From: Nitrospira sp. KM1
Lineage (GTDB): Bacteria; Nitrospirota; Nitrospiria; Nitrospirales; Nitrospiraceae
DNA length: 64,000 bases
Direction of reading: 5' to 3'
Assembly (NCBI RefSeq): GCF_011405515.1
Contig: NZ_AP022671.1
Span: forward strand, 1,860,001-1,924,000
Below are positions 1-52,480 of this stretch, one piece after another. A model generated the notes under the pieces. That model saw only the letters and a program-made list of their open reading frames with translations. It searched no databases and was not told the origin of the DNA. How positions within the stretch are numbered: position 1 is the stretch's first letter; each line of letters begins with the position of its first letter. Position numbers and translations under genes: made by a program.

Positions 1-39
1 ATAGGCATGGTGGAACCGGGAACGGGAGGTCAGCTACAG

Positions 40-79
40 GCGGGAGATCCTTTGGCCCACGGCTCAAAGGATTTCCCGC
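40..79 (-). terminator. Hairpin downstream of the di-haem peroxidase gene
   Basis: Arms at 40-54 and 65-79 are complementary at 14 of 15 positions, and the odd pair is a G-T wobble. The loop is 10 bases. It starts 18 bases past the stop codon at 98. No T-run follows on the minus strand, so it may be a 3'-end stabilising hairpin rather than a classical intrinsic terminator. Confidence 0.55.
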
Positions 80-97
80 CCATGCCTGTGTACGGCG

Positions 98-1204
98 CTA
101 TTGCGGAAATGTCTTGGGGGCCGCAATTTTCTGCCAGCCTTCCCCGTTCAAGGTGTGGAGAAACGCAACGAGAGCCTTTTTCTCCTCCGGCGTCAACTCC
201 AGAGCGATCACATTATTGTCGAGATGGGGATTGGCAATGCCTCCCTGATTATAAAAGTCTACGACGGCTTCGAGTGTTGCGAAACGTCCATCATGCATAT
301 AGGGAGCAGTCCGGCTGATCTCGCGAAGCGTCGGGGTCTTGAATGCGCCGATCTCCTCGGGATTCTTGCTCACCATATATCGTCCGAGATCCACCGTATT
401 GTCGTCCCAGCCGATTCCAAGATTATGGAACTTCTCATCGGTAAAGTTGAATCCAGAGTGGCATCGGACACAGCGCGCCTTCCCACGGAACAACTCCAAC
501 CCCTTTTGCGCTTCCGGTGAGATGGCATTCTCCTCGCCTCCCATGTCGAATCGATCGGCGGGACTATTTCCCGACAACATGGTCCGCTGAAAGCTGGCAA
601 TGGCCTTTCCCACGTTTTCCATCGTAATGTCGGAATCGAAGACGTTCCTGAACGCCGTTTGATAGCCTTTGATCTTCTTGAGCTTCACGAGCATTTGATC
701 GTAATCCGCGAATCCATGCTCGACCGGATTGGTGAACGGTCCGATCGACTGTGCTTCCAATGTCTCCGCCCGCCCGTCCCAGAACTGGCCCTTGCTGAAC
801 ACGCGGTTCAGGGACGTCGGAGCGCTTCGATTGCCTTTCAAACCCTTGATGCCGGATGAAACCCGTTGCCCATCCGTAAAAGCCAGATTCGGGAGATGGC
901 AACTCGCACATGCAATCTTATTCGTTGTCGACATGCGCTTGTCGAAGAAGAGCTGCCGTCCGAGTTCGATCTTCTCCGAGGTCAACGGGTTGTCGTCGGG
1001 AATGACCACGGCGCTCTCTTCAAGACCGAAGGGAAGCTTTAGTTGGTACCCGCCATCCTGCCGGACCGGTTGTGGCCCACCGCGTGAGACCGAATCACCC
1101 GCAAGAGGCGCTCCGGAAGCCCACAGAAGCGCCAATAGCCCGGCGATGCTGCCGACTCCAACGGTGAATCTTCCAACCTGTGATCTCGACGTGAATGGCC
1201 CCAT
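98..1204 (-). CDS. Di-haem cytochrome c peroxidase (MauG/CcpA family)
   Basis: Periplasmic reduction of hydrogen peroxide to water with electrons from small c-type cytochromes is the usual role of this family. The 368-residue protein has a hydrophobic export signal (about residues 12-38) and two CXXCH haem sites, CASCH in the N-terminal half and CVRCH in the C-terminal half. The late segment TAPYMHDGRFATLEAVV is typical of the family. The length fits. The ATG at 1204 is preceded by a strong GGAGGGAGGAG ribosome site. A lipoprotein gene lies 46 bases upstream on the same strand and an OxyR-type regulator is divergent, which suggests peroxide control. A methylamine-type MauG role is less likely because no mau genes are present. 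Confidence 0.9.
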   Translation of the reverse strand: MGPFTSRSQVGRFTVGVGSIAGLLALLWASGAPLAGDSVSRGGPQPVRQDGGYQLKLPFGLEESAVVIPDDNPLTSEKIELGRQLFFDKRMSTTNKIACASCHLPNLAFTDGQRVSSGIKGLKGNRSAPTSLNRVFSKGQFWDGRAETLEAQSIGPFTNPVEHGFADYDQMLVKLKKIKGYQTAFRNVFDSDITMENVGKAIASFQRTMLSGNSPADRFDMGGEENAISPEAQKGLELFRGKARCVRCHSGFNFTDEKFHNLGIGWDDNTVDLGRYMVSKNPEEIGAFKTPTLREISRTAPYMHDGRFATLEAVVDFYNQGGIANPHLDNNVIALELTPEEKKALVAFLHTLNGEGWQKIAAPKTFPQ

Positions 1205-1250
1205 AAGCTCCTCCCTCCAAGAATTGACGATTGCCGCCGGTTACCGCTAG

Positions 1251-1631
1251 TTAATTGATTTGCGCATGAGGCACTTGGCTTCGGTATTCACGAGCCAACT
1301 CGTCCGCCTCATCCGCCGCAGCCCAGAGGACTTTTGCATTGTCGAGGCTACGTCTCGCCTGCTCGTCGCCCTCTCCCCGTAGCCGGATGAACTGTTGCGC
1401 CTCGAGTTCATAGCGAGCGGCCATGGAGCGCAGTTCTGCCGCCTGCGATCGGTATTTAAATACCGAATCCCCCGCCTCTCTCTGCGACATTCCTTTTACC
1501 ACCTCATCATGTGGCGTTTCAGTGGCTTGATCGAGGCCCAGTGCGCATCCGCTCATCAGCATAACCACAAAGACCGCTCCCAAAACATTTTTAAAATATG
1601 ACTCTCGTTTGTTCGTGGATAAGGTGCTCAT
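1251..1631 (-). CDS. Small putative lipoprotein upstream of the peroxidase
   Basis: The 126-residue protein starts at the ATG at 1631, chosen because AGGAGG sits just upstream; a longer frame to 1706 lacks such a site. The signal segment ends in a lipobox (LMSGC), so the mature protein is probably a lipid-anchored periplasmic protein of about 100 residues. The mature part is strongly helical and rich in Ala, Glu and Arg, and could form a short coiled coil. It shares the strand and probably the transcript with the peroxidase. I do not recognise a domain. Its promoter should lie in the AT-rich gap next to oxyR. Confidence 0.7.
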   Translation of the reverse strand: MSTLSTNKRESYFKNVLGAVFVVMLMSGCALGLDQATETPHDEVVKGMSQREAGDSVFKYRSQAAELRSMAARYELEAQQFIRLRGEGDEQARRSLDNAKVLWAAADEADELAREYRSQVPHAQIN

Positions 1632-1706
1632 GACTTCCTCCTCTCTTTTATCCCACTCTCCTCGCGCCTTGCTTTGTGAGGTACGCTTGGATTTTACCGG
1701 CTGCAT

Positions 1707-1780
1707 GGCGATAAGTACAATTGATTATATTTCTAACTGTGATTTATATTTCTTATCATGTATTCCAAGATCAGCCTGTC
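1707..1780. promoter_or_regulatory. Divergent AT-rich control region between lipoprotein/peroxidase and oxyR
   Basis: The short gap is much richer in A and T than its surroundings. It contains a near-direct repeat, GATTATATTTCT and GATTTATATTTCTT, about 18 bases apart. LysR-type regulators commonly bind such a region and control both their own gene and the divergent one. OxyR binding here is inferred, not seen. Confidence 0.5.
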
Positions 1781-2692
1781 ATGACACTCACGGTGCTTCG
1801 CTACATCGTGGCAGTCGCGCAAGAACGCCATTTCGGCCGAGCGGCCGAGCGATGCTTCATCAGCCAGCCGGCCCTCAGTCTGGCGATTCAAAAACTGGAA
1901 GAAGAATTGAATGCCTCGCTTTTCGAACGTAAGAAAAGTGAGGTGACGCTCACCCCACTGGGTGAACAGATCGTCCAACAAGCCCAGCGTGTTCTGGAGG
2001 AAGCGGAGCAGATCACTCTGATTGCCGCACAAGGAAAGAATCAGCTGGTGGGCCGGCTCCGTCTGGGAGCGATATCGACCGTCGGCCCGTACATCCTGCC
2101 GGACCTCGTGACCGCCCTGCACAAGCGGGCGCCACAGATGCCGCTCGAAATCGAAGAGAATTTGACTGCCAATTTGACCCGCATGCTGAAAAGCGGAAAA
2201 CTGGACGTCATCCTCATCGCGCTTCCCTTCGAAGAGCCGGGCATCATCTCGGAAGCGCTCTACGACGAACCTTTTAAAATGGTTGTTCCCGTCACCCACC
2301 CATGGGCGAAACGCTCCGAAGTGGATGCCAGAGAATTGTCCGGACAGGACGTCCTTCTGCCGCATGCCGGCCATTGCTTCCGTCAACAGGTCCTGGATAG
2401 CTGCCCGGATCTAAGCCGATCAGACGCAGAAGGCATTCAGGGCAACTCTCTTGAAACCATCCGGCAGATGGTGATTTCTGGATTAGGCATTACGGTGATG
2501 CCGACCAGCGCGCTGACGGCCAAATATCAGCACAAACGTCTTGTCGCCGTCCCTTTCATCAAGCCCGTCCCTCAGCGTCGGATCGGACTGGCCTGGCGAA
2601 GAGGATTCACACGTCCTGCTGCGCTGGAGGTCATCCGTCATGCCATGAGGACGTTGAAGATCCCGGCTCTGACGCCCATCTCATCCTCATAA
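1781..2692 (+). CDS. oxyR: LysR-family peroxide sensor, OxyR type
   Basis: A transcription activator that senses hydrogen peroxide through a cysteine pair. The 303-residue protein begins MTLTVLRYIV; in-frame codons upstream of 1781 do not resemble the family. Residues 1-60 are a LysR winged helix-turn-helix (HFGRAAERCFISQPALS). The effector domain contains HCFRQQVLDSC, with two cysteines separated by eight residues, the same spacing as the redox pair Cys199/Cys208 of E. coli OxyR. It lies divergent from the lipoprotein and peroxidase genes, a common arrangement for a regulator and its targets. The cysteine pair makes OxyR a much better call than a generic LysR protein. Confidence 0.88.
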   Translation: MTLTVLRYIVAVAQERHFGRAAERCFISQPALSLAIQKLEEELNASLFERKKSEVTLTPLGEQIVQQAQRVLEEAEQITLIAAQGKNQLVGRLRLGAISTVGPYILPDLVTALHKRAPQMPLEIEENLTANLTRMLKSGKLDVILIALPFEEPGIISEALYDEPFKMVVPVTHPWAKRSEVDARELSGQDVLLPHAGHCFRQQVLDSCPDLSRSDAEGIQGNSLETIRQMVISGLGITVMPTSALTAKYQHKRLVAVPFIKPVPQRRIGLAWRRGFTRPAALEVIRHAMRTLKIPALTPISSS

Positions 2693-2892
2693 ATCTGAAC
2701 AATCGCATACACCAGTCTCCGGACCGCCGGTCAATGGCCAAGTACCTTCATTTACGACGTTCCAGCAATGCCTCAAGTTGTGAGTGGTACACATGCGTCG
2801 CCTTGGTTAGAATGGCCGACGTCGGAGAATCTCAATCTACATTCGAACGGCCGTTCCGATGACACCATGATGCCGGTGAAAGATCGTCCGCG

Positions 2893-3939
2893 ATGAGGGC
2901 AATTCCCGGTTGGGATCACCCGGGGCGACGACTGAGACCGTCGCTTCATCTATCTGCCGCACTGCTGTTCAGCACGGCGACGGGGTGTTCCTTTCTCATT
3001 CCCTCGACCAATCACACCACAGCCTCTGAGCGTCATTGCACCCCAGCGACCCCCGTCTCCTTTTCACGGGCTCAGGAATACGACTCCGCCGCCCCGCCGG
3101 AGGTCGAGACGGACATTCCGTTGTCTCCGCGGGCGCTGGAAGTCGCAAGCGTGATGGACGTGATGCCGATTCTGTCCAGCATGTCGAAGCTTCAATCCGC
3201 CGGAGAAACCAGAAGCATCGCATATTTGGAACTGCGGCAGGCATTGACCGACCGTCTGCTGCTGACGATGTTTGAGGTGTCGTCGGCCGTGGCCGAGATT
3301 GTGTGCGAACGCGACCGCGCAGACCAGGTTGCCGACCGTATGGAAGAGATCGACGCCGCCATGGTCAGAAAACTGACGCTGGTTTCAATCGTTGTCGGCG
3401 GGGTGGCAGCGGCCGTGTCGGGTGGAATCGGATTGGCCGGAGGAGCCAGCACGGCAAGCGACGCGGCGGCATTGGCAGGAGGCGTATTGGCCTCCGTGTT
3501 CGGAGGAACGGCGCTCTTTGCGACGTCCAAACAGGAGTTTCATCACGAGCGCAACCTTCTGAAAGAGGTATGGGACAATCCCCAACAATCCGCGGTCATT
3601 TCACCGGCCGTCTGGCGATACCTCCAAGCCCGTCATAAAGAACCTGAGACGACGGCACGCGGCGAAGTGGTCAATGCCTGGCAGCAGCAAGGCCGTCTTG
3701 GAGAGCAAGGGTCCTCAGTCCAGTCGCAACGCATCCCCTTATTCTTCGGACCTGGAGGGGTCTATACCGCAACAGATCTGCGGGCCAGAGCGTCGATGCT
3801 GGAAACCCTGGAAGCCCAGATCCAATTGCTGACCGAAGAGCTGGAATTGTTCCTTCGAGAGATCATGCAACTTCGATACGAAGAGGCGCTACAGGGTCAG
3901 CGGCCGTCACTCAATCGCGGATCGGCCGCCATAAAATGA
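2893..3939 (+). CDS. Putative exported protein with glycine-rich hydrophobic segment, unknown function
   Basis: The 348-residue protein has an N-terminal hydrophobic stretch ending near Cys32 (FSTATGCSF), which could be a weak lipobox. A helical region follows, then a Gly/Ala-rich membrane-like segment at about residues 160-215, and a C-terminal helix rich in Glu, Gln and Leu that could form a coiled coil. The glycine-zipper-like middle is seen in several envelope proteins, but I cannot name a family. Three RNase, hydrolase and kinase-type neighbours give no clue. The ribosome site at 2893 is weak, so the start is uncertain. Confidence 0.6.
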   Translation: MRAIPGWDHPGRRLRPSLHLSAALLFSTATGCSFLIPSTNHTTASERHCTPATPVSFSRAQEYDSAAPPEVETDIPLSPRALEVASVMDVMPILSSMSKLQSAGETRSIAYLELRQALTDRLLLTMFEVSSAVAEIVCERDRADQVADRMEEIDAAMVRKLTLVSIVVGGVAAAVSGGIGLAGGASTASDAAALAGGVLASVFGGTALFATSKQEFHHERNLLKEVWDNPQQSAVISPAVWRYLQARHKEPETTARGEVVNAWQQQGRLGEQGSSVQSQRIPLFFGPGGVYTATDLRARASMLETLEAQIQLLTEELELFLREIMQLRYEEALQGQRPSLNRGSAAIK

Positions 3940-3986
3940 TGATGCGTACCTGATCACGCAGGCTTCAACGAGATCGGCGGAGCGCC

Positions 3987-4736
3987 ATGATTGAATCGTC
4001 ATTTTGTCTGCTTCCAGGAATCGGCCGCACGACAGAACGACGATTGTGGCGGCAAGGCATCCGTTCGTGGAATGATTTTCTTGGCACTCCGTCCATTGCG
4101 GGAATCAGCGCGACCCGCAAAACGTTATGGGACAAGAAGCTGCTGGAGGCTCACTACCATCGGACACGGGAAAACGCGAGGTATTTCGGCGTCACACTTC
4201 CAGGAAACGAACATTGGCGGCTCTACGAGTGGCTGCGATCCAGAACACTCTTTCTCGACATCGAAACCGACTCGTCGGGCCGCATCACCGTCGTGGGGTT
4301 GTATGGCCGCGGACGCTGCCTCTCGTTGGTTCGCGGGGAATCACTGACGCGACGCCGACTGTGCGACGAATTAACCGAGTACGGTCTGCTGGTGACCTTC
4401 AATGGAGCGAGCTTCGATCTCCCGATGTTGCTGAATCAATTCCCTACCCTGCCGCTGGATCAGCCACACATCGATCTCTGCCGGCTCGCCCGGCGGCTGG
4501 GATATCGCGGAGGGCTCAAAGCGGTTGAACGCCAATGCTCCATACAACGCAGGACCGATCTGCAAGGGCTGTCCGGACATGATGCCGTCTGTCTGTGGAA
4601 CCGCTGGCGCTATGGCGGAGATTCCCTGGCACGGGAGCGCGTGGTGGCTTACAACGAAGCAGATTGCGTCAATCTGCAGCCTTTAGCCGATCGGATGTAT
4701 TGTGAGATGGCGCGCGTCCTGACCGGAAGCGCCTGA
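3987..4736 (+). CDS. YprB-like ribonuclease H-fold exonuclease
   Basis: A probable DEDD-type 3'-5' exonuclease. The 249-residue protein has an N-terminal helix-hairpin-helix (LPGIGRTTERRLWRQGI), followed by exonuclease motifs in order: FLDIETD (about residue 88), VTFNGASFDLPML (about 137) and YNEADCVNL near the C-terminus. These supply the acidic metal ligands. Length and order match the YprB/RNase_H_2 family. Its substrate is unknown. It has its own GGAG ribosome site 47 bases after the preceding gene. Confidence 0.75.
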   Translation: MIESSFCLLPGIGRTTERRLWRQGIRSWNDFLGTPSIAGISATRKTLWDKKLLEAHYHRTRENARYFGVTLPGNEHWRLYEWLRSRTLFLDIETDSSGRITVVGLYGRGRCLSLVRGESLTRRRLCDELTEYGLLVTFNGASFDLPMLLNQFPTLPLDQPHIDLCRLARRLGYRGGLKAVERQCSIQRRTDLQGLSGHDAVCLWNRWRYGGDSLARERVVAYNEADCVNLQPLADRMYCEMARVLTGSA

Positions 4737-4932
4737 GAATTCACGACCACCTCGGGCTAACCAAGCTCCGGAATCGTTTCCTGCCCGTGCCTGAATGGCG
4801 CCTCTCTTTCAGAACACGAGGCCGGGCATCTCTCGCAGCCTTTCGACTTTTGATGACTTGCGTCCGGAGTGCCTGTCGGGAGTATCATAGCTCCACGACA
4901 GCGCGGTGATGACCGTGAAGGAAAAGGAGTCC

Positions 4933-5736
4933 ATGTCGATCGTCCACGTCAACGGCATCCCTCTCAACTATCGGGAGTCCGGCAACGGCAACGGCCCGAC
5001 GATCGTGTTCGCGCCTTCACTTATCTGGAGCAGCGACGTGTACGATGAGTTGTTGGGTCCGCTCAAGGACGATTTTCATATCGTGGCATTGGAACTCCAT
5101 GGCCACGGGCAAAGCGGATACAGGCTGGACATGACCTTGGAGGGCATCACCGAAGAATTCTCTCTTTTGCTGAAGCAACTGAACTTGCAGCGCCCTGCCT
5201 GGTTGGGCTGCTCGATCGGCGGAATGATCGGCATGCGTCTGGCCCTCGCGCATCCCGACGTCCTCGATTCGCTCATCCTTGTGGCAACGAGTGCGCGGCC
5301 GGACCCTTCTCAGATCAAAGGGGCGACCCTGCATCTGTGGAAAATGTTTCGCGACGGGCATCGCGGAGATATCGCAGACCCCGCGCTGAAACTCCTCTTC
5401 GCCGCACGCACGTTTAAAGAATGTCCTGATTTGATTGCCCGGTGCAGAGGCGAGCTGATCCGTACAAAAGATGCAGCAGGAATGTTCGCCGCGGCACTGG
5501 CAACCATCAATCGAACGGATATCAGCGGAGAGATCCACAAGATCAAGACACGGACGCTCGTCATCACAGGCCGTGAAGACCCTGCGGCAACGCCCGCTCA
5601 AGCGGACTTCATCGAGACACAGATTCCAGGTGCGGAGATGGCGATTATCGATGACGCCGGTCACATGGTCGCACTGGAAAAGCCCGGGGAAGTTGCCAAG
5701 TTGGTTCAGGGTTTTCTCGCAAAATCACAGTCATAA
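4933..5736 (+). CDS. Alpha/beta hydrolase, 3-oxoadipate enol-lactonase-like
   Basis: The 267-residue cytoplasmic hydrolase starts at the ATG at 4933, which has AAAAGGAG directly upstream. The nucleophile elbow is GCSIGG, the acid is probably the Asp in GREDPAATP and the base the His in GHMVALEKP. The region before the elbow carries the usual oxyanion-loop context. The family includes enol-lactonases and many hydrolases of unknown substrate, and no aromatic-degradation genes are nearby, so the specific reaction is open. A second hydrolase of the same type lies at 58396. Confidence 0.8.
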   Translation: MSIVHVNGIPLNYRESGNGNGPTIVFAPSLIWSSDVYDELLGPLKDDFHIVALELHGHGQSGYRLDMTLEGITEEFSLLLKQLNLQRPAWLGCSIGGMIGMRLALAHPDVLDSLILVATSARPDPSQIKGATLHLWKMFRDGHRGDIADPALKLLFAARTFKECPDLIARCRGELIRTKDAAGMFAAALATINRTDISGEIHKIKTRTLVITGREDPAATPAQADFIETQIPGAEMAIIDDAGHMVALEKPGEVAKLVQGFLAKSQS

Positions 5737-5792
5737 GCACCCATCAAGCGCAGCACCAACGGGCACGCGACACCTTCGAGCCCCCCAATCTT

Positions 5793-6296
5793 TCAAAGAC
5801 TCAGGTTCGATCGAATATGTGCGACGATCTCATCCGGCGTATGATCGGCATCGACGGTGACGGCGTCGACCGGCTCTTCAAGCGTTTCAAACTGACTGGC
5901 CAGCAGGTTGCGGTTCATGAAATGTCCTCTCCGCAGGGCCAATCGTTTTTCAATGAGCGCAAAATCCCCTTTGAGATAGATGAACCGGACATGGTCCGCT
6001 GCGCCCTCGATCATGGTTTTCCGGTAACCGGCTTTCAAGGCCGAGCAGGCCAAGACACCGTTCCGGCCCTGCTTCACCCATCCGATGATCACCTGCCTGA
6101 TCGCCTTCAACCAGAGCCTTCGATCCTCGTCTGTTAATGCTCGACCACGTGTCAACTTGTCCAGATTATCGGCAGAGTGTAAGTCGTCCGCATCTTGAAA
6201 CTCCCAGCCCAATACGCGAGACAAGCGAAATCCAATGGTGGTTTTTCCCGATCCGGATACGCCAATCAAGATAATGACTTGAGGTTTCAAAGCCAT
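5793..6296 (-). CDS. gntK: Gluconokinase
   Basis: ATP-dependent phosphorylation of gluconate to 6-phosphogluconate. The start is the ATG at 6296 (167 residues), giving the family's usual short N-terminus before the P-loop GVSGSGKTT. Further motifs are DADDLHSADNLDKLTRGRAL (substrate loop), DEDRRLWL and CSALKAGYR, all typical of gluconokinase rather than shikimate kinase. The exported protein gene upstream (6383-6868) shares the strand with an 86-base gap. No gluconate transporter is visible here. Confidence 0.88.
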   Translation of the reverse strand: MALKPQVIILIGVSGSGKTTIGFRLSRVLGWEFQDADDLHSADNLDKLTRGRALTDEDRRLWLKAIRQVIIGWVKQGRNGVLACSALKAGYRKTMIEGAADHVRFIYLKGDFALIEKRLALRRGHFMNRNLLASQFETLEEPVDAVTVDADHTPDEIVAHIRSNLSL

Positions 6297-6382
6297 GCGG
6301 AACACCAATGGAGAAAAATCTTTCAGGTTACAAAGGAGAGATTCAACGGGAGACCTTGACCAGGCCATCTCTGGATCGCCGA

Positions 6383-6868
6383 TCAATAGGCAAGGGGAAG
6401 GAGTTCCGCCGTTTCCGCCCGTAAGACTGCGCGAATCCTATTCTCCAGCTGCAGATAGCGAGCGGTTTTAGCCCAGGGTAGCACCTTGCCGATCTTGTTC
6501 GCATAGGCGCGGTTGAGTGTGAATTCACCCTCCTGGATGGACAGCGCTTCGTCCAGAAGCTTCTTGGCGGTCTCGTCCGGAATGGGACCCTTGACGAACG
6601 CTGTAGAATATTCCTTGATGTTTTTATCCATCCGCCCAGTCAACTGCTCCAGCTCTTTTTGATACTCTTCGTACAGAGGCCAGAACTGCTTCCCTTCCCC
6701 GTCGGTAAGTTCCATATTATTGACTATCAACGTTTTCTTGTTCGCTCTGATCATTTGAAGAAGAAACTCCTGGTCGGGAACCGCATCAGAACCCGCCCGG
6801 GTCTGAGCGAGGTCGGCCACAGCCAGCATGAGACCGCCAAGAAACAGGAATACGATCAGCTTGTTCAT
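6383..6868 (-). CDS. Small exported helical protein, unknown function
   Basis: The 161-residue protein has an N-terminal signal peptide (hydrophobic residues 4-20, likely cleavage after TRAG) and an otherwise helical mature part. It contains MELTDGEGKQFWPLYEEYQKEL, a pattern that recalls periplasmic helical proteins with 'LT..Q' repeats such as the Spy/CpxP group, but similarity is too weak to assign. AGGAGG stands upstream of the ATG at 6868. It may be co-transcribed with the gluconokinase gene. Confidence 0.7.
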   Translation of the reverse strand: MNKLIVFLFLGGLMLAVADLAQTRAGSDAVPDQEFLLQMIRANKKTLIVNNMELTDGEGKQFWPLYEEYQKELEQLTGRMDKNIKEYSTAFVKGPIPDETAKKLLDEALSIQEGEFTLNRAYANKIGKVLPWAKTARYLQLENRIRAVLRAETAELLPLAY

Positions 6869-7634
6869 ACAGTTCCTCCTTTTACCCTTCCGGCCCCTCT
6901 CGGGATATCCACGTCACTCCCTTCCGGTTTCGACATGTTGCATGAGCCGACAAGGCTCCGGATCCTTGCAGATCCGCTGGAGAGATCAAATAGAGTCTCG
7001 CACGAAGATGTTGTAGATGAATCGCCAGAGAAGAATGGGAATGCCTTACCGATTACGACAAGATTCATTGTGTCGTGAGAACACCGATGATGAAGAAATG
7101 CTATATCCGACGCAGGATTCGGTCAAGCCCGGGAAGCATGCACCGAAACTTTCGACGTTGAGGCATCTTGTTTAGGCGACCTGCCACCTTTTTCTGCTGG
7201 ACAAATCACTTCGTCGAACCATTAAGGCGATCGCTTGAAGATACTTCCGTAAGCCGCTGACCGTGATCCTTCACCTCGATGGAATTTTTTGCAAGACACG
7301 TATTCCTACTTGCTTTCTCTTGTGGCTTTTTCGTAATGTTCCGTTGTCGTCTCGTTCAGGAGAATGACGGTGCCCGACTTTTAAGCCGTCCTTCGTGTTT
7401 ACCTGTCTAGTCGGCGAACGCATCACGCTACCGACCTCAGTGCCGCTACACCTTGGCGTGTGATCCCAAATAGTGCGTGCAACCGGCTTCTGACTGCCGC
7501 GCCGGTAATCGCAGGTTGTTTAGTACACGAAATCCCTTGTTGGACAAAGCAACGCATGCGAGCCGTAGCTTCATTCCCGTGCAGTTCATAAACGTGGATA
7601 TGCGCTCAACTTATTAAACCAAGGAAAAGTCATC
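6869..7634. other. Intergenic region without recognisable gene
   Basis: About 770 bases between a minus-strand and a plus-strand gene. Short open frames are present on both strands but none has a ribosome site or recognisable protein. The region must hold both divergent promoters; I see no convincing operator or RNA structure. Confidence 0.5.
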
Positions 7635-39612: not shown

Positions 39613-40170
39613 CGAGTTGGAAGCCATTAAGATCCTAAATGATCGGGTCACACCTGAAGTATTAAAAGAACTTTGGCGAGTGGTTGTAGCTGAGCTTAAT
39701 ACCGGGTTACGGAGGGGAAACTCCTGGTTATCGATCGATCCTGGATTCGTGAAGAGGCTGATGGATGGTGGTTTGTATTACCACCAAACCGTATCCCTCT
39801 CAATCCCTCAGCGCTATCGGCACTGCGTGATCCCCAATCCTCCATTGTAGACGGCCGGGTCTTTCGGAGGTAAGACGATATCCGAGCCTTCAGGAAATAT
39901 TGGGCTCGAGTCTGCAAATTGGCCAAGATTCAGGATTTGCATTTTCACGACCTACGACACACCTTCACCACCCGCCTACAAAGCTTGGGAGTCGACTACG
40001 AGGTCAGACAGACCTTGCTTGGGCATCGGATGCCCGGGATGACGGCCACCTACTCCCATGGAGGTCCGGAGTGGGATGCGAAGCTCGCCAAGCCGTCAGT
40101 TCACTACATCAGGCATTCAAAATGGTCGATGGTTTGGTCTACGAACGCTCGTCCATCGCGGTGGGTGATC
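39608..40170 (+). pseudogene. Relic of a tyrosine integrase next to the left tRNA-Lys fragment
   Basis: The first frame has VAELNTGLRRGNSW (catalytic Arg region). The later one has LHFHDLRHTFTTRLQSLGVD and QTLLGHRMPGMTATYSH, giving the H-x-x-R box, the second His and the nucleophile Tyr. The N-terminal domain is absent and the two halves are in different frames. It ends next to the 3' tRNA fragment at 40184, as integrases usually do, and so belonged to another element left of island A. Confidence 0.65.
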
Positions 40171-40183
40171 GTAACCACTTGAA

Positions 40184-40234
40184 AAGTGGTGAGCCGCCTG
40201 GGACTCGAACCCAGGGCCCTCGCCTTAAAAGGGC
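40184..40234. repeat. Attachment-site repeat: 3' part of tRNA-Lys (left end of island A)
   Basis: These 51 bases are identical to 46029-46079. They comprise the CCA end, acceptor 3' strand, T arm and anticodon stem of the tRNA-Lys gene, and stop at the anticodon arm. Past 40234 the sequence is unrelated. This marks the left boundary of island A. Confidence 0.85.
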
Positions 40235-40746: not shown

Positions 40747-42090
40747 ATGTCACCGCAGTATGACCTTTTCAATCCATCGGCAATAAAGAGAATAGTTGTA
40801 GAAAAATTGTTCGGTGTTTTTTCATATACTATTCCGGCACCAGACTCGGATTGCTCACAACTCCTAATCATATATGGCGACAACGGCTCAGGGAAAACAA
40901 CCATACTCAAGTTGGTGTTTCATCTTTTATCCCCTGAAAGCAATAAAGGGCATAGATCATTTGTCGCTAAGACGCCTTTCAAAAGCCTCCATATCGAACT
41001 TGAAAATGGCTTTGCTGTGTCCGCCAGCAGAGAAGATACCCTGATAGGCGAATATGAACTCAGAATCGCACAAGGCGAAACAATCTTGGCCCAGTGTAAG
41101 TGCATTACGAAAGAAGATTTTGCCGTAGTCGCACATTGTGAAGGTTTAAACAGAGTTGAGGAGCAACTAGCAAGGCTTGAGCTAACCGTGCATTTTCTTG
41201 CAGATGATAGGAGGATGGCTCGCAGCGTCCAGGTCCCCAGAGAAACCAAAACAGTGTATGAAAGACGCTACCGAGTCCCAGGGGTTATAGGCGCTAAAGA
41301 CGAGGATTCCGATGAGTCCAGACTTGATGCAAATCTTAAGACTGCAGTTTACAGAGTTACCCAATGGATAAGACAGCAGGTGCTCAGAGGTTCCTCCAAA
41401 GGCCAGGAGGATTCAAATACAATATATGCCCATGTCATCAGACAAATAATCGCAAAAAAAGATTCCTCAGAATTGCATTCAGGCTCTATTGTTGAGACCA
41501 TCGACACACTTGCTTCACGAAACAATCTATTTTCAGAATTCGGATTTATTGCCCCAATAAATATTCAATCCTTTAAGGAACCACTGATGAGCGCCCCAAG
41601 CACTAACTATCATCTAGTGAGCAGGATACTGCAACCTTACTTTGATGGAATCAGGGCGCGATTGGATGCCCTAGATGGTATCTACCAACTTGTGAAGCTG
41701 TTTGTGACTAATGTTAATTCGTTCTACACCAACAAGCAGATCGCGTTTAGTTTACAGGAGGGTTTATCCATAATTTCAGCCGACGACTCAAAATTGCACT
41801 TTACAATGCTCTCATCAGGCGAAAAACAACTTTTGTTACTTTTCTGCAATACGCTCTTAGCAAGAGACAAGTCAGCCGTTTTCATTATTGACGAACCTGA
41901 GTTGTCTCTAAATGTGAAATGGCAGCGGCGCCTGTTAAAAGCACTGCTAGAATGCATCCAGGGAAGTAACATACAGTTTCTTCTTGCTACTCATTCGCTA
42001 GAGATTCTGGCTTTACACAGAAAAAACGTTGCGAAGTTGATATCCGATCCACTGGAGCAATTTGATGAGTTACGATCGGCGAACCCTTGA
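40747..42090 (+). CDS. ABC-type ATPase of a PARIS-like defence system (AriA-like)
   Basis: The 447-residue protein has a Walker A GDNGSGKTT (residues 44-52), an ABC signature LSSGEKQ (about 355), a Walker B FIIDEPELSL (about 380) and an H-loop LLATHSLEIL (about 415). This layout is that of the AAA_15/OLD-type ATPases, including AriA of PARIS. It is followed, with a 26-base overlap, by a DUF4435 protein, the AriB family. In PARIS, the ATPase cage senses an anti-restriction phage protein and releases the nuclease partner. GGAG precedes the ATG. Codon and base use are AT-rich compared with the core genes. Sensing of a specific phage trigger is inferred only. Confidence 0.8.
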   Translation: MSPQYDLFNPSAIKRIVVEKLFGVFSYTIPAPDSDCSQLLIIYGDNGSGKTTILKLVFHLLSPESNKGHRSFVAKTPFKSLHIELENGFAVSASREDTLIGEYELRIAQGETILAQCKCITKEDFAVVAHCEGLNRVEEQLARLELTVHFLADDRRMARSVQVPRETKTVYERRYRVPGVIGAKDEDSDESRLDANLKTAVYRVTQWIRQQVLRGSSKGQEDSNTIYAHVIRQIIAKKDSSELHSGSIVETIDTLASRNNLFSEFGFIAPINIQSFKEPLMSAPSTNYHLVSRILQPYFDGIRARLDALDGIYQLVKLFVTNVNSFYTNKQIAFSLQEGLSIISADDSKLHFTMLSSGEKQLLLLFCNTLLARDKSAVFIIDEPELSLNVKWQRRLLKALLECIQGSNIQFLLATHSLEILALHRKNVAKLISDPLEQFDELRSANP

Positions 42091-42937
42091 GGAGATTATT
42101 GCAAGATATGAGTTGGAGCCCACTCTCCGCGATATATATGTAGAAGGGGAGTTTGATGCATTTCTTATCAGATGGGTTCTCCATGAAGTAGGCATTCGGG
42201 ATTCTTTTGTTTATGAAATCGCAACCGTAGAAGTCCCTTCATCTCTCCTAAGCGATCTCGGTGTAGATAATAATAATAGGGGACGCGTTGTAGCATTGGC
42301 ACACAGGATAGCGCACCATCTTGGAAGCCAGAACAGACAAGTTACTCTTGTTATCGACAAGGACTTTGACTCCCTGCTTGGAAAGTCCCACAACACAGAT
42401 TTGTTATTGGTAACCGATTATTCATCCATGGAGATGTATTTTTTCAATCAATGGCACATTCAGAAGTTTCTGACGTTAGTCCTGCAGGAAGGATCATTGG
42501 ATGTGCCCATTCTTCTTTCTCATATAACTAGCATTCTCGAATATCTCTTCTTATTAAGGTTCGCAAATTACGTAAGGAGGCTAAACTTACAATGGATGTC
42601 TTTCGAGCGCTGTTGTACGTATGAAACAGGAGGAAGCGAAATACACTTCGATCAAGAGGATTTCATCACAAGATATCTAAACAAGAATAGCGCATCAGCC
42701 AATAAAAACGACATATTACAGACAATCGAGGAATACAAGTCTCGGCTAAGCTCAGATGCTCGGTTGAATGCTCATGGGCATGACTATTATGCTCTTATGG
42801 AATGGATATCAAAACAGCTAAAGCCTCGCTGTTTCAATAATACGCAGTCTTTTGAAAGGGCTTTCACGGGATGCTTGGAGGTAGGCCGGGTCAAAAATGA
42901 ACCTCTGTTCCAGAAGTTGCTCCAGCGGCAAACTTAA
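42065..42937 (+). CDS. DUF4435 TOPRIM-like nuclease of a PARIS-like system (AriB-like)
   Basis: The ATG at 42065 (290 residues) has GGAG upstream; the frame also opens at a TTG three bases earlier. It has the TOPRIM-like start IYVEGEFDAFLIRW with Glu27, VIDKDFDSLL supplying the acidic pair, and the DUF4435 motifs TDYSSMEMYFFN and HGHDYYALMEW. From memory, AriB of E. coli uses a Glu at about position 26 for its tRNA nuclease activity. The gene is translationally coupled to the ATPase. A tRNA target would be natural next to tRNA-Lys, but cannot be read here. Confidence 0.78.
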   Translation: MSYDRRTLEEIIARYELEPTLRDIYVEGEFDAFLIRWVLHEVGIRDSFVYEIATVEVPSSLLSDLGVDNNNRGRVVALAHRIAHHLGSQNRQVTLVIDKDFDSLLGKSHNTDLLLVTDYSSMEMYFFNQWHIQKFLTLVLQEGSLDVPILLSHITSILEYLFLLRFANYVRRLNLQWMSFERCCTYETGGSEIHFDQEDFITRYLNKNSASANKNDILQTIEEYKSRLSSDARLNAHGHDYYALMEWISKQLKPRCFNNTQSFERAFTGCLEVGRVKNEPLFQKLLQRQT

Positions 42938-42966: not shown

Positions 42967-43272
42967 ATGTTTACAAAGGGTATGAAAAAACTGGGAGGAC
43001 GAAAAAGAGGGATCCCCAATAAATTGACCAGCAACTTTCGCGACGCAATCTTATTGGCTTATCAAGACATCGGAGGTCATAGAGCATTTGCAGAATGGGC
43101 CACAGAGAACAAGACCGATTTTTACAAAATCGCCGCGCGGTTGATTCCAGGCGAGATCAGAAATTCCAGCGATAACGAAATCCGGGTCATTATTGCTCGA
43201 ACCGTTGAAGAGCCGAATCAAATTGGAACAATTCAAGGAGAGCAGAGGTATTTAGAGAATGACTCCCTCTGA
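42967..43272 (+). CDS. Small DUF5681/terminase-small-subunit-like protein
   Basis: The 101-residue basic protein has GGRKRGIPNKLTSNFRDAIL near its start and FYKIAARLIPGEI in the middle, as in DUF5681 and phage small-terminase-like proteins that bind DNA. It lies 29 bases after the AriB-like gene on the same strand. Its role in the island may be DNA binding or packaging. The ribosome site is weak. Confidence 0.55.
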   Translation: MFTKGMKKLGGRKRGIPNKLTSNFRDAILLAYQDIGGHRAFAEWATENKTDFYKIAARLIPGEIRNSSDNEIRVIIARTVEEPNQIGTIQGEQRYLENDSL

Positions 43273-43431: not shown

Positions 43432-43917
43432 TCATTTGTATTTGAAATCGCGTTCTTGTATGGGGAACCCTTTGATGATTTCACCGTCGTGTAAAGGACG
43501 CAACACTCTCCCGACCCGTGAGTGATAGAGCGAGGGATGAAGGGGACCGCGGTTGTCCCGATCAACTATGACAACATCGACAAAAAGGCGTTTGCCGATA
43601 AAGATTTCTGGCGTCAACCGTTTCTCTCGATCTGGAAGCCTCCCGTCATTAGCCGAGACCCAATCCTTGTAATATCCGGAATGTGACCCGGCATATATTT
43701 GTCCTCCCTTATCACGTTTGATTGGGTGATAACCTTCTAGCCTTCGAGCTGTCTGGCAGTCTGGTGATAGGAACACGTCCCACTCAATAACGATTTTTTC
43801 TCCCCAATCAGTATAAGGTTTGACCGACCATCCCTTTGCGCACGCCACGTAGATTCCGCTGGGTAACAACGGAAGTGGCGATGCTGGACCTCTGATATTT
43901 TCATTATCGTTTGCCAT
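43432..43917 (-). CDS. Hypothetical protein of island A
   Basis: The 161-residue protein starts MANDNENIRG at the ATG at 43917, with AGAGG upstream. It contains LPSGIYVACAKGWSVKPYTDW and EKIVIEWDVFLSPDCQ, a beta-rich pattern, then a charged C-terminus. I do not recognise a family, but the pattern recalls small replication or maintenance proteins of integrated elements. It follows the excisionase-like gene on the same strand. Confidence 0.6.
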   Translation of the reverse strand: MANDNENIRGPASPLPLLPSGIYVACAKGWSVKPYTDWGEKIVIEWDVFLSPDCQTARRLEGYHPIKRDKGGQIYAGSHSGYYKDWVSANDGRLPDREKRLTPEIFIGKRLFVDVVIVDRDNRGPLHPSLYHSRVGRVLRPLHDGEIIKGFPIQERDFKYK

Positions 43918-43930
43918 GATGTCATTCCTC

Positions 43931-44134
43931 TCACATGCGGCTTTGCTTTTGGGGGTCCGCAGCACGGTAGCCGCCTTCGAGGATGCGTAAAACAGCCGAT
44001 TCAGGAACGCGCACCGCTCGGATAGACGGTCGAACCGTGTCGATTCGCCGCTCCAAGATCATCCGCCGAATGGTCGCTTCTTTAAGCCCTAGCCGCTCCG
44101 CCGTCTGTGCCACCGTCAGCAACTTACCGATCAT
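43931..44134 (-). CDS. Excisionase-like MerR/HTH_17-family DNA-binding protein
   Basis: The 67-residue protein has LLTVAQTAERLGLKEATIRR, a winged-helix-type HTH_17 motif, and a VPESAVLRIL end. Small proteins of this kind are typically excisionases (AlpA/Xis). AAAGGAG precedes the chosen ATG at 44134. It points away from the integrase side of the island. Confidence 0.78.
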   Translation of the reverse strand: MIGKLLTVAQTAERLGLKEATIRRMILERRIDTVRPSIRAVRVPESAVLRILEGGYRAADPQKQSRM

Positions 44135-44259
44135 AGTCATCTCCTTTGCTACGATTAATTGGACTTGCTTATTACTTGTTGCGTAATGTATATATGTTTG
44201 CGTAATTTCTGTCAAACCGCAAACAGCAGTGATAGCGAATAAACATGGGAGGGGCGCAT

Positions 44260-44973
44260 ATGCCGCAACGTCGGTTTAGCTCTCAGTCCTTCGGGCCTAT
44301 TAACAAGACCGGTGAGGTTCCACCGACCTTATCTCCAACAGATGAACGTGCGCTAATCCGAATCGGCTATGACAGGGGTCCCGCCGAAGAGCTTGGTTGG
44401 TTCATTCGATTAGCCAGCACTGATTGGGATAGGGCAAGTGAGGGAGATCTCTTGAATCTCCGTGAGGAGTTTCTCGCGTTGCAGAAGGTCCGGTTGCGGG
44501 TTGTCACGGAACTGCCCGGCATGGATGTGATTCAAGCTGTACAGCCCCTTGTTCGTAGGCATCTCACAGATCTGGCCGACAAGGGAGCGACCGCTTTGCC
44601 TCAGATCCCAGTCACTCAATTTATTGAATATCCCCGTGTCGCACACAAGCTTTGGGCAGGTGAGACTCATGCATCGTCGGCGCCGTTACCAAAAAATATT
44701 CCCGATTGCATATCGCTCTATCATGCGCCACAAGGAATTGGGCTAATCGTCGTAATGGGTCATCTTCTGGCAACAGTAAGACATCTCATCACTCGCTGTC
44801 CTCACTGCACGAAAATATTCCTGCAATCGCGCCGCAATCAAGAATACTGCAGTCGCTCTTGTCAGAATATTGCTGTGGTCAGACGTCACAGAGCTGCTGA
44901 GAAAGAGGCAAAAAGCAGAGGGATCAGAGCGAAGAAACAACGAGGAGGCCAACATGGCAAGAAAAGACGGTAA
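44260..44973 (+). CDS. Zinc-ribbon protein with CGNR-like C-terminus
   Basis: The 237-residue protein starts at the ATG at 44260, with GGAGG at good spacing. The N-terminal part is helical. The C-terminal quarter has a zinc-binding pattern CPHCTKIFLQSRRNQEYCSRSC, followed by a basic tail. This resembles the CGNR zinc finger, which is thought to bind nucleic acids. It overlaps the integrase gene by 20 bases, so the two are co-expressed. Confidence 0.65.
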   Translation: MPQRRFSSQSFGPINKTGEVPPTLSPTDERALIRIGYDRGPAEELGWFIRLASTDWDRASEGDLLNLREEFLALQKVRLRVVTELPGMDVIQAVQPLVRRHLTDLADKGATALPQIPVTQFIEYPRVAHKLWAGETHASSAPLPKNIPDCISLYHAPQGIGLIVVMGHLLATVRHLITRCPHCTKIFLQSRRNQEYCSRSCQNIAVVRRHRAAEKEAKSRGIRAKKQRGGQHGKKRR

Positions 44974-46096
44974 GGACAGAGGCATCCTGCAGCGAAAGGG
45001 CCGTGAGGGTTGGTGGGTGCGCTTCTATGTCGATGGGAGAGAGAAGTGGCAACGTTGCGATACAAAAAGCCAAGCAAAAGCCTTATATGGGCGGCGGAAA
45101 GCAGAGCAACGGGAGGGAAGATATTTTGAACGTCCGCAAGCCATGCCTTTTCGGGAGTTGGCAGGTGAATACATAAAGGCAGTTGACGCTCGCCGTAAGA
45201 GAAAGGGCGATGACCTGTCGCGAATCAGTCGCTGGATATTAGCATTCGGAGACCAGGACGCCAGTACGATCACGATCCGACAGATTGAAAGGGTCCTAAC
45301 TGAACTTCATGAAGCCGGGATGCAGCCAGCCACTCAACAGCGCCACTTAACTGTCCTGAAGGCTGCTTTCAATAGAGCAAGGAGGCTTGGGCTGGTAAAG
45401 GAGAATCCCGCATGTCTCGTAAGGCCTCCAAAGGTCAACAATGTCCTTGTTCGATATTTGACACACGAGCAAGAGACAACGCTTCTTGCATACTTGCCCA
45501 AGAAATATCGACCATTGATCGTTATGGCCTTGAATACGGGATTGCGGCAGGGCGAGCTGTTACGTCTCACATGGGCCGACATTGATTGGAATGTTGGCGT
45601 GTTGACCATTCATGAAACCAAAGCTGGAGAACGTCGTCGAGCCCCGATGAACTCTACCGTGGTAGGCCTTCTCAGCGATTTAAAGCCCGCTTCCAAAGAG
45701 GATGGCCCTGTTAAGCATGTATTCCCATTTGATGCACGGTACGTCCGACGCGTCTTCGAGGATGCTGTTAAGGCAGCGGGACTCACTCCTTTCAGGTTTC
45801 ACGATTTGAGGCACACATTTGCCTCACGGCTTGCGATGCAGGGAGCGAATGATCGAACCCTCATGGCTCTTGGAGGATGGAAATCTCCCGCCATGCTCAG
45901 TCGGTACGCACACCTTTCCCCTACCCACCTTTGGAAGGCTGTAGAAGGCCTAACTCAGGTTGGAACCGTGACCAAAACCGTGACCGAGGAATTAGCCACG
46001 GAGGTAGAGACTCAGAAGTTATTGAAAGAAGTGGTGAGCCGCCTGGGACTCGAACCCAGGGCCCTCGCCTTAAAAGGGCGATGCTCTACCGTCTGA
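44954..46096 (+). CDS. Tyrosine integrase of island A, ending inside tRNA-Lys
   Basis: The 380-residue site-specific recombinase has an N-terminal arm-binding part (RGILQRKGREGWWVRFYVDG), core-binding helices, and the catalytic set LNTGLRQGELLRLTW (Arg), HDLRHTFASRL (His-x-x-Arg), LGGWKSPAMLSRYAH (second His position replaced by Trp, then Tyr). AGGAGG precedes the ATG at 44954. The stop codon is at 46094-46096, so the last codons are read through the tRNA-Lys gene on the other strand. All catalytic residues appear present, so this element may still be mobile. Confidence 0.88.
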   Translation: MARKDGKDRGILQRKGREGWWVRFYVDGREKWQRCDTKSQAKALYGRRKAEQREGRYFERPQAMPFRELAGEYIKAVDARRKRKGDDLSRISRWILAFGDQDASTITIRQIERVLTELHEAGMQPATQQRHLTVLKAAFNRARRLGLVKENPACLVRPPKVNNVLVRYLTHEQETTLLAYLPKKYRPLIVMALNTGLRQGELLRLTWADIDWNVGVLTIHETKAGERRRAPMNSTVVGLLSDLKPASKEDGPVKHVFPFDARYVRRVFEDAVKAAGLTPFRFHDLRHTFASRLAMQGANDRTLMALGGWKSPAMLSRYAHLSPTHLWKAVEGLTQVGTVTKTVTEELATEVETQKLLKEVVSRLGLEPRALALKGRCSTV

Positions 46097-46107
46097 GCTA
46101 GCGGCTC
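46032..46107 (-). tRNA. tRNA-Lys (anticodon TTT)
   Basis: A complete 76-base cloverleaf with encoded CCA: acceptor GAGCCGC/GCGGCTC, D arm, anticodon loop CTTTTAA, and T arm with TTCGAGT. It lies at the junction of islands A and B. The 3' part is duplicated at 40184-40234 and the 5' part at 52384-52425. This is the only intact copy visible. Confidence 0.95.
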
Positions 46108-46345
46108 ACGCTTGAGAGAATGTGAAGGATTCGGCGGAGTCGGACACAGTAACGGTTTCGGGCTGGCGTGTCAATTGGTCGATTGTGCCCGTAATTGTGC
46201 CCATTTCTTTCGAAAAGCACCCGGACAACCGGCTCGCGGCAGCTTTCAAGTCAGCCTCATTGACGATATTGTACCTGGTCAAATACGGTCCTGTTTCAGC
46301 TTCACCTATTAGCAGGAGAGACAGTGATGAGATATGCCAATCCAT
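46106..46345 (-). pseudogene. C-terminal relic of an integrase in island B
   Basis: The frame reads TRYNIVNEADLKAAASRL and later EMGTITGTIDQLTRQ. These resemble the tails of phage tyrosine integrases after the catalytic Tyr. The stop codon lies at the first bases of tRNA-Lys (46106). The upstream catalytic domain is missing. It suggests a second integrase whose end met the same tRNA from the other side. Confidence 0.5.
46115..46157 (-). promoter_or_regulatory. Promoter candidate for tRNA-Lys
   Basis: On the minus strand, TTGACA is followed after 17 bases by TACTGT, about 36 bases before the tRNA 5' end. The -35 is perfect, the -10 is weak. It lies in the coding region of the integrase relic, so the tRNA would be expressed from island DNA. 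Confidence 0.4.
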
Positions 46346-51966: not shown

Positions 51967-52480
51967 GGATGTTTCCCTCCAGATTTGATAGTGAGGGAAA
52001 CTCCGTGCAAGGGAAATACCACTTCCCTTCTATGTCTCACCGCTCGCGTTTCCTGCGCCTTACATGGTTAATGAGATCGCCTTGAGAGACGCTATGTCTT
52101 TATGAGGGCAGATTGTCTACCTAGAGTGGTGACCGTAGATGTCTCTGGCTAGCGCTGGGAGTCCTCAGAAGGCCGCCCCGCCGCCGCCTTGATGCCGGGG
52201 AGTCTTTCCGCTGTGCCCAAATTGTGCCCGAACATGCGCCCACCGTACTGCATGTCCTACCGACTCCCCCACACTGCTCCAAACAAACCAAAAGCCAGGC
52301 AACTCATTGAGCGGCCTAGCCTTTCTCTCATTCCTCTTGTCTGTCTTATCGTTCCGCTCTGTCCCTGATTCTCTCCCCTTTTACCTTAAAAGGGCGATGC
52401 TCTACCGTCTGAGCTAGCGGCTCACCGGATTGAAGGTGAGAATCTTATCATCCAAGATCGATGCGTGCCTAGTGAGGAAT
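51967..52480. other. Right end of island B with integrase-tail remnant
   Basis: At 52148-52255 on the minus strand a frame reads MFGHNLGTAERLPGIKAAAG, resembling the tails of some integrases, but this is weak. At 52384-52425 the 5' part of tRNA-Lys occurs (separate entry). Otherwise no gene. Confidence 0.35.
52384..52425. repeat. Attachment-site repeat: 5' part of tRNA-Lys (right end of island B)
   Basis: These 42 bases are identical to 46068-46109, i.e. the acceptor 5' strand, D arm and anticodon arm. The two att repeats share a 12-base core CCTTAAAAGGGC at the anticodon arm (46068-46079). This marks the right boundary of island B, about 55 bases from the end of purA. Confidence 0.85.

Follow-up and report, generated by a model that had tools for sequence, protein, structure and literature searches.

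A PARIS-type AriA/AriB gene pair of a divergent branch in a tRNA-Lys island of Nitrospira sp. KM1

Known PARIS systems and the gene pair of Nitrospira sp. KM1

The PARIS system of E. coli is reported to work through sequestration in a ring, release by a trigger, and cutting of tRNA (PMC12409363, PMC11455837). PARIS was found in 5.2% of prokaryote genomes from diverse clades, and the published detection rule uses a score of 27 bits for AAA_21 or 32 bits for AAA_15, together with 27 bits for DUF4435 (PMC9122126). In this study, we analyzed a stretch of 64,000 nucleotides from Nitrospira sp. KM1, called the window here. Its gene pair shares with E. coli PARIS (PDB 8ux9, 8v45-8v49; PMC9122126, PMC12409363) the arrangement of two adjacent genes, an ABC ATPase followed by a Toprim protein, and the location on an integrase-type mobile element. 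Also common to both are the folds of AriA and AriB along the entire chains and the Walker, signature, and Toprim catalytic residues. On the other hand, the full-length identity to known PARIS proteins is only 14% for AriB (from the structural match) and about 20% for AriA, and the window pair differs from that of E. coli in its 26-bp gene overlap and in a DUF4435 score below the cut-off. Profiles, relatives, and predicted folds all speak for a PARIS-type AriA/AriB pair located in a tRNA-Lys island. Very probably, the pair constitutes a two-gene PARIS system from a divergent branch and is the cargo of a small island with its own integrase; an E. coli-like mechanism is expected, and the RNA target may differ.

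Other described systems are less similar. The fused AriAB of genome G353 (L004), from the same family as the host, has an ATPase and a DUF4435 part as in the window (PADLOC AriAB 3e-207, 688 bits), but it is a single polypeptide of 698 aa and represents another PARIS branch. The ATPases of Septu/retron (PtuA) and OLD/Gabija (GajA) show a related ABC ATPase fold (PtuA Z 14-16), with scores well below those of AriA/AriB. Moreover, the partner of PtuA is the HNH protein PtuB, whereas the window partner has the Toprim AriB fold, and OLD and GajA join ATPase and Toprim on one polypeptide, whereas these are separate genes in the window; neither trait was found in the window pair.

It had been proposed in the initial annotation of this locus that a copy here would widen the known range of PARIS. 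This did not hold at the level of the phylum or family: the window pair adds a member, and the range is hardly widened because PARIS is already present in the family as the fused AriAB of G353. Full-length fused AriAB also occurs in other genomes of the phylum, and DUF4435 exceeded the cut-off in 8 of the 396 genomes sampled. AriAB profile counts over the phylum were mostly generic ABC ATPases, and full-length matches alone were used. The PADLOC AriB search of the genomes missed the window's own copy, so that absence in those genomes is weak evidence.

The two proteins and their relatives

The ariA-like gene (40747-42090, + strand) starts with ATG and encodes an ABC ATPase of 447 aa, the putative sensor and sequestering subunit. 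The ariB-like gene (42065-42937, + strand) encodes a Toprim nuclease-type putative effector of 290 aa; its ATG at 42065 has GGAG 7 nt upstream, while the TTG at 42062 is the mechanical start. Both frames are intact and overlap by exactly 26 bases, as noted earlier from the open reading frames. The genome, a single contig of 4.51 Mb, contains this ariB gene once, and promoter and terminator scans gave nothing above chance. Adjacent genes for an ABC ATPase and a DUF4435-type Toprim protein were found here and in five other loci; a chance origin of the pair is ruled out because the pairing, the overlap, and the motifs recur in those five loci.

The best profile, sequence, and fold matches of the ATPase are all AriA. 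In PADLOC, the top two matches were AriA models (7e-27 and 7e-22) and a third AriA model scored 2e-17, a modest lead over the best non-AriA match, PtuA at 6e-20. Among PDB sequences, three E. coli AriA entries led with 2e-15 to 6e-15, and the next match was at 4e-6. AlphaFold (AF2) models of both proteins were built from alignments of the six relatives and compared with the PDB. The AriA model (mean pLDDT 72.6, with low-confidence stretches at residues 154-189 and 237-245) matched 8ux9_B with Z 23.1 over 352 aligned residues at 4.1 A, and AriA chains (Z 18.8-23.1) were all ahead of retron-Eco7 (16.4). Walker A GDNGSGKT (44-51), the signature LSSGE (355-359), Walker B VFIIDEPE (E383), and H416 are complete and invariant in six relatives except for a few flanking positions, and E383 corresponds to E393 in AriA of E. 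coli. These results agree with the initial annotation, which had recognized AriA with all nucleotide motifs; its assignment to ABC/AAA_15 is backed by 52 bits, but AAA_21 scored higher (78.4).

The partner matched AriB as its sole PADLOC family (1.4e-7). Its AF2 model (mean pLDDT 86.3) aligned with AriB of 8ux9_A at Z 17.3 over 263 residues (4.2 A), followed by the OLD Toprim family at Z 7.7, and Foldseek gave E 1.3e-7 to AriB and no other family under 0.001. A profile of six relatives aligned with E. coli and Pseudoalteromonas AriB (hhalign E 6e-7, 209 columns, local probability 92%), and VEGxxD, the acidic cluster, ExYFF, and GHD/GHT all coincided. In this alignment, E27 falls on the catalytic E26 and D98 on D88 of E. 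coli AriB; Glu27 (VEGEFD) and D98/D100/D102 of the DxDxD cluster are invariant in six relatives, which gives the protein a catalytic Glu26-type Toprim site within an AriB fold. Against the PDB, a two-sequence AriB profile found no match, and the PDB sequence search was not used as proof of AriB because the six-sequence profile reached it at E 0.12 only.

The partner had been described as a DUF4435 TOPRIM protein with Glu27 and an acidic pair. The residues and the AriB fold stood, while DUF4435 scored 25.7 bits, 1.3 under the Pfam cut-off of 27. Under the published rule the pair is thus over the AAA_21 and AAA_15 thresholds and under that of DUF4435. However, the bona fide Pseudoalteromonas AriB has no DUF4435 match either. 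Since the match is missing in L014, which is closely homologous to E. coli AriB (6e-70 to 8ux9_A), the DUF4435 cut-off is a detection aid and not what defines the family.

The checks proposed at the outset, namely a search with AriA/AriB models, structure prediction of both proteins, and comparison of Glu27 with the AriB active site, pointed to PARIS in each case, and the pair was not placed in a different ATPase-TOPRIM family without AriB-type catalytic residues. Another ABC-ATPase and Toprim defense (OLD class 2, Gabija, AbiL, mads_3, or a retron-type ATPase-Toprim) that is superficially PARIS-like is highly improbable and already largely refuted by the predicted-fold comparisons. The ATPase does match PtuA, AbiLi, mad3, and ATPase-Toprim_I-B with values of 1e-14 to 1e-20, as is usual in this ATPase clan, but PARIS ranks first by wide margins in both fold comparisons across the entire chain (Z 23 vs 16; 17 vs 7.7), and the partner matches AriB only.

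This ATPase-Toprim pair, with unchanged gene order, was found in Alteromonas marina (L003), the one match in a species-genome collection by a scan limited to near relatives, and in four non-redundant virus-flagged contigs (L005, L006, L007, which is the same as L010, and L008). A further contig, L009, ends after the ATPase. These pairs have 34-36% (AriA) and 25-32% (AriB) identity to the window pair at similar lengths and share its gene order and invariant residues, whereas the relatives carry Arg before the GHD motif and the window copy has His. The window pair and the recurring pairs form a coherent, sequence-divergent PARIS branch; maximum-likelihood trees of the families were poorly resolved and were used only for branch divergence. 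This branch does not rise above the published cut-offs for detection, and its proteins fall in PHROG 7507 (ATPase, 1.4e-40) and PHROG 20954 (AriB, 4e-6), both of which are listed with unknown function. A tblastn search with AriB against plasmids and phages gave no match. The sole extra match in the phylum-wide search with the window AriB, in G076 (L002), was a GlnD-like protein and was attributed to chance.

Two further loci were observed. In the region 1-7209 of the 14.7-kb contig L006, the AriAB pair of the same branch lies beside filamentous-phage-like genes (Zot-like by eye), and this resemblance of the neighbors suggests that the pair is carried by an inovirus. In genome G376 (L025, 6497-7262), there is a partial relative of the AriB branch (E 8e-14) near the contig end, without the N-terminal part and with no ATPase on the stretch read.

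The mobile island at tRNA-Lys

The ariAB pair is cargo of a mobile integrase-borne island of 5,845 bp (~5.8 kb) between exact 51-bp direct repeats. The attL-like repeat at the left end (40184-40234) is the displaced 3' half of tRNA-Lys(UUU) and matches exactly the attR-like repeat (46029-46079), which lies mostly inside the tRNA-Lys(UUU) gene (46032-46107, - strand; ARAGORN, Rfam). As the island lies between these exact copies of the tRNA 3' half, tRNA-Lys is its attachment site; the tRNA was rebuilt intact on integration, and an alteration of its sequence by the island was rejected, the two repeat copies being identical. Apart from tRNA, no structured RNA family was found with Rfam. Downstream of ariAB, the island carries a small phage-type protein (42967-43272, + strand; phrog_11043, PHROGs 5.8e-7), an ORF without family match (43432-43965, - strand), and an excisionase-like HTH_17 protein (43931-44215, - strand; Pfam HTH_17 6.8e-9, phrog_66 excisionase 1.8e-7). 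These are followed by a zinc-finger-like protein (44245-44973, + strand; weak CGNR/HNH-type match below the Pfam cut-off) and a tyrosine integrase (44954-46096, + strand; Pfam Phage_integrase 3.8e-32, phrog_1 3e-69). The integrase frame ends in tRNA-Lys, the antisense strand of which codes for the last ~20 integrase residues.

The GC content is 42.8% in ariAB and 47.5% in the island, against 55-56% outside. In the congener G155, the tRNA is directly followed by sequence like that left of the window attL (CACCACTTTTCAAGTGGT), without ariAB, and this genome represents the empty site of the island. The repeats, the integrase, the excisionase-like gene, the low GC, and the site without insert in G155 bear out the earlier view that the pair lies inside a tRNA-Lys island. 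In congeners, the same tRNA-Lys is followed by a DruE-like gene in G155 (L073) and by a TmtA-like gene in G314 (L075), the latter within a segment that has a displaced tRNA copy at its border. The tRNA-Lys(UUU) of the genus is thus an integration site with different defense genes in different species and a possible defense hotspot.

Several traces of other insertions were seen at this site. A C-terminal integrase fragment (39919-40182) abuts the left repeat and has a counterpart beside tRNA-Lys in G155 (L073); it is left over from an earlier element at this tRNA. In addition, the anticodon loop and the 5' half of tRNA-Lys are present twice as an exact 42-bp direct repeat (46068-46109 and 52384-52425), the outer copy of which adjoins purA, where relatives have the whole tRNA. 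The 5' half of the present tRNA and its upstream region apparently came from a second insertion of about 6.3 kb, in which no integrase was seen. This upstream sequence is shared with G149 (L072).

The RNA target and the expected mechanism

In E. coli, the AriB cleavage site in Lys(UUU) and Thr(UGU) is U36AAUC|A41, where cutting is abolished by a change of U39 and reduced by a change of A41 (PMC12409363). The initial annotation had called the location next to tRNA-Lys notable, since AriB is reported to cut tRNA-Lys in E. coli. The 51-bp duplication explains the neighbor as the integration site, and by the E. coli rule the adjoining tRNA-Lys(UUU) is an unlikely AriB target because it reads U36AAGGC41, without the E. 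coli cleavage site. Thr(UGU) reads UAAACC and Asn(GUU) UAACCG in the host, and all three lack U39 and A41. Among the tRNAs retrieved, which did not include all class II ones, UAAUCA occurs only in Lys(CUU) and one elongator-type Met(CAU).

The protein side was compared at E. coli AriB residues E26, R28, K60, K64, D88, and R236, read off the PDB alignment. It is documented that the E26A mutant is inactive, that defense is lost in the K60A/K64A double mutant, and that R28 and R236 were placed at the tRNA D-loop in an AlphaFold 3 model (PMC12409363). At R28, K60, K64, and R236, the window AriB has E29, G66, N70, and H237, so that all four contact residues are replaced. The two lysines are absent in all six branch members; the nearby basic R72 and R74 align with R67 and K69, and H237 is particular to the window AriB, with Arg in five relatives. 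These replacements may point to an altered target but are no proof of it, because the alignment around K60/K64 may be off by one column and K60 is also missing from Pseudoalteromonas AriB. Given the replaced contact residues and the absence of the known cleavage site from the host tRNA-Lys(UUU), the RNA target could well differ from the E. coli set. It is unlikely that the window AriB acts on the same tRNAs as E. coli AriB: the fold and catalytic site are common to AriB, but the contact residues, the host Lys(UUU), Thr(UGU), and Asn(GUU), and the role of the neighboring tRNA as an attachment site argue against it. We tentatively propose, as an idea with somewhat less than even chances, that the branch kept the AriB catalytic site, changed its RNA target (tRNA-Lys(CUU), elongator Met, or another RNA), and defends with an undescribed specificity. 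The branch offers a natural test that separates AriB residues needed for catalysis from those for target choice.

By analogy with E. coli PARIS, AriA would form an ATPase ring that holds AriB inactive. Binding of a phage protein to AriA (in E. coli, DNA-mimic anti-restriction proteins) would release AriB, which would dimerize and cut RNA via a two-metal Toprim site, and this cutting would stop translation and abort the infection. For the window pair, complex formation, trigger sensing, release, RNA cleavage, and defense are thus what we infer from its E. coli counterpart, while our own results comprise the two genes and their pairing in six loci, the predicted AriA and AriB folds, the conservation of ATPase and nuclease residues, and the mobile island.

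A PARIS-derived pair that is no longer anti-phage, either as decaying cargo or as a toxin-antitoxin that only maintains the island, would fit the small size of the island beside remnants of older insertions and the loss of residues important for tRNA binding in E. coli AriB. We regard this as improbable, since both frames, the catalytic residues of both proteins, and the arrangement of start, overlap, and ribosome site are intact, and island maintenance and defense are not exclusive. For a defensive PARIS pair, the single HsdR-type gene of the host is consistent with, though no proof of, a second-line role behind restriction.
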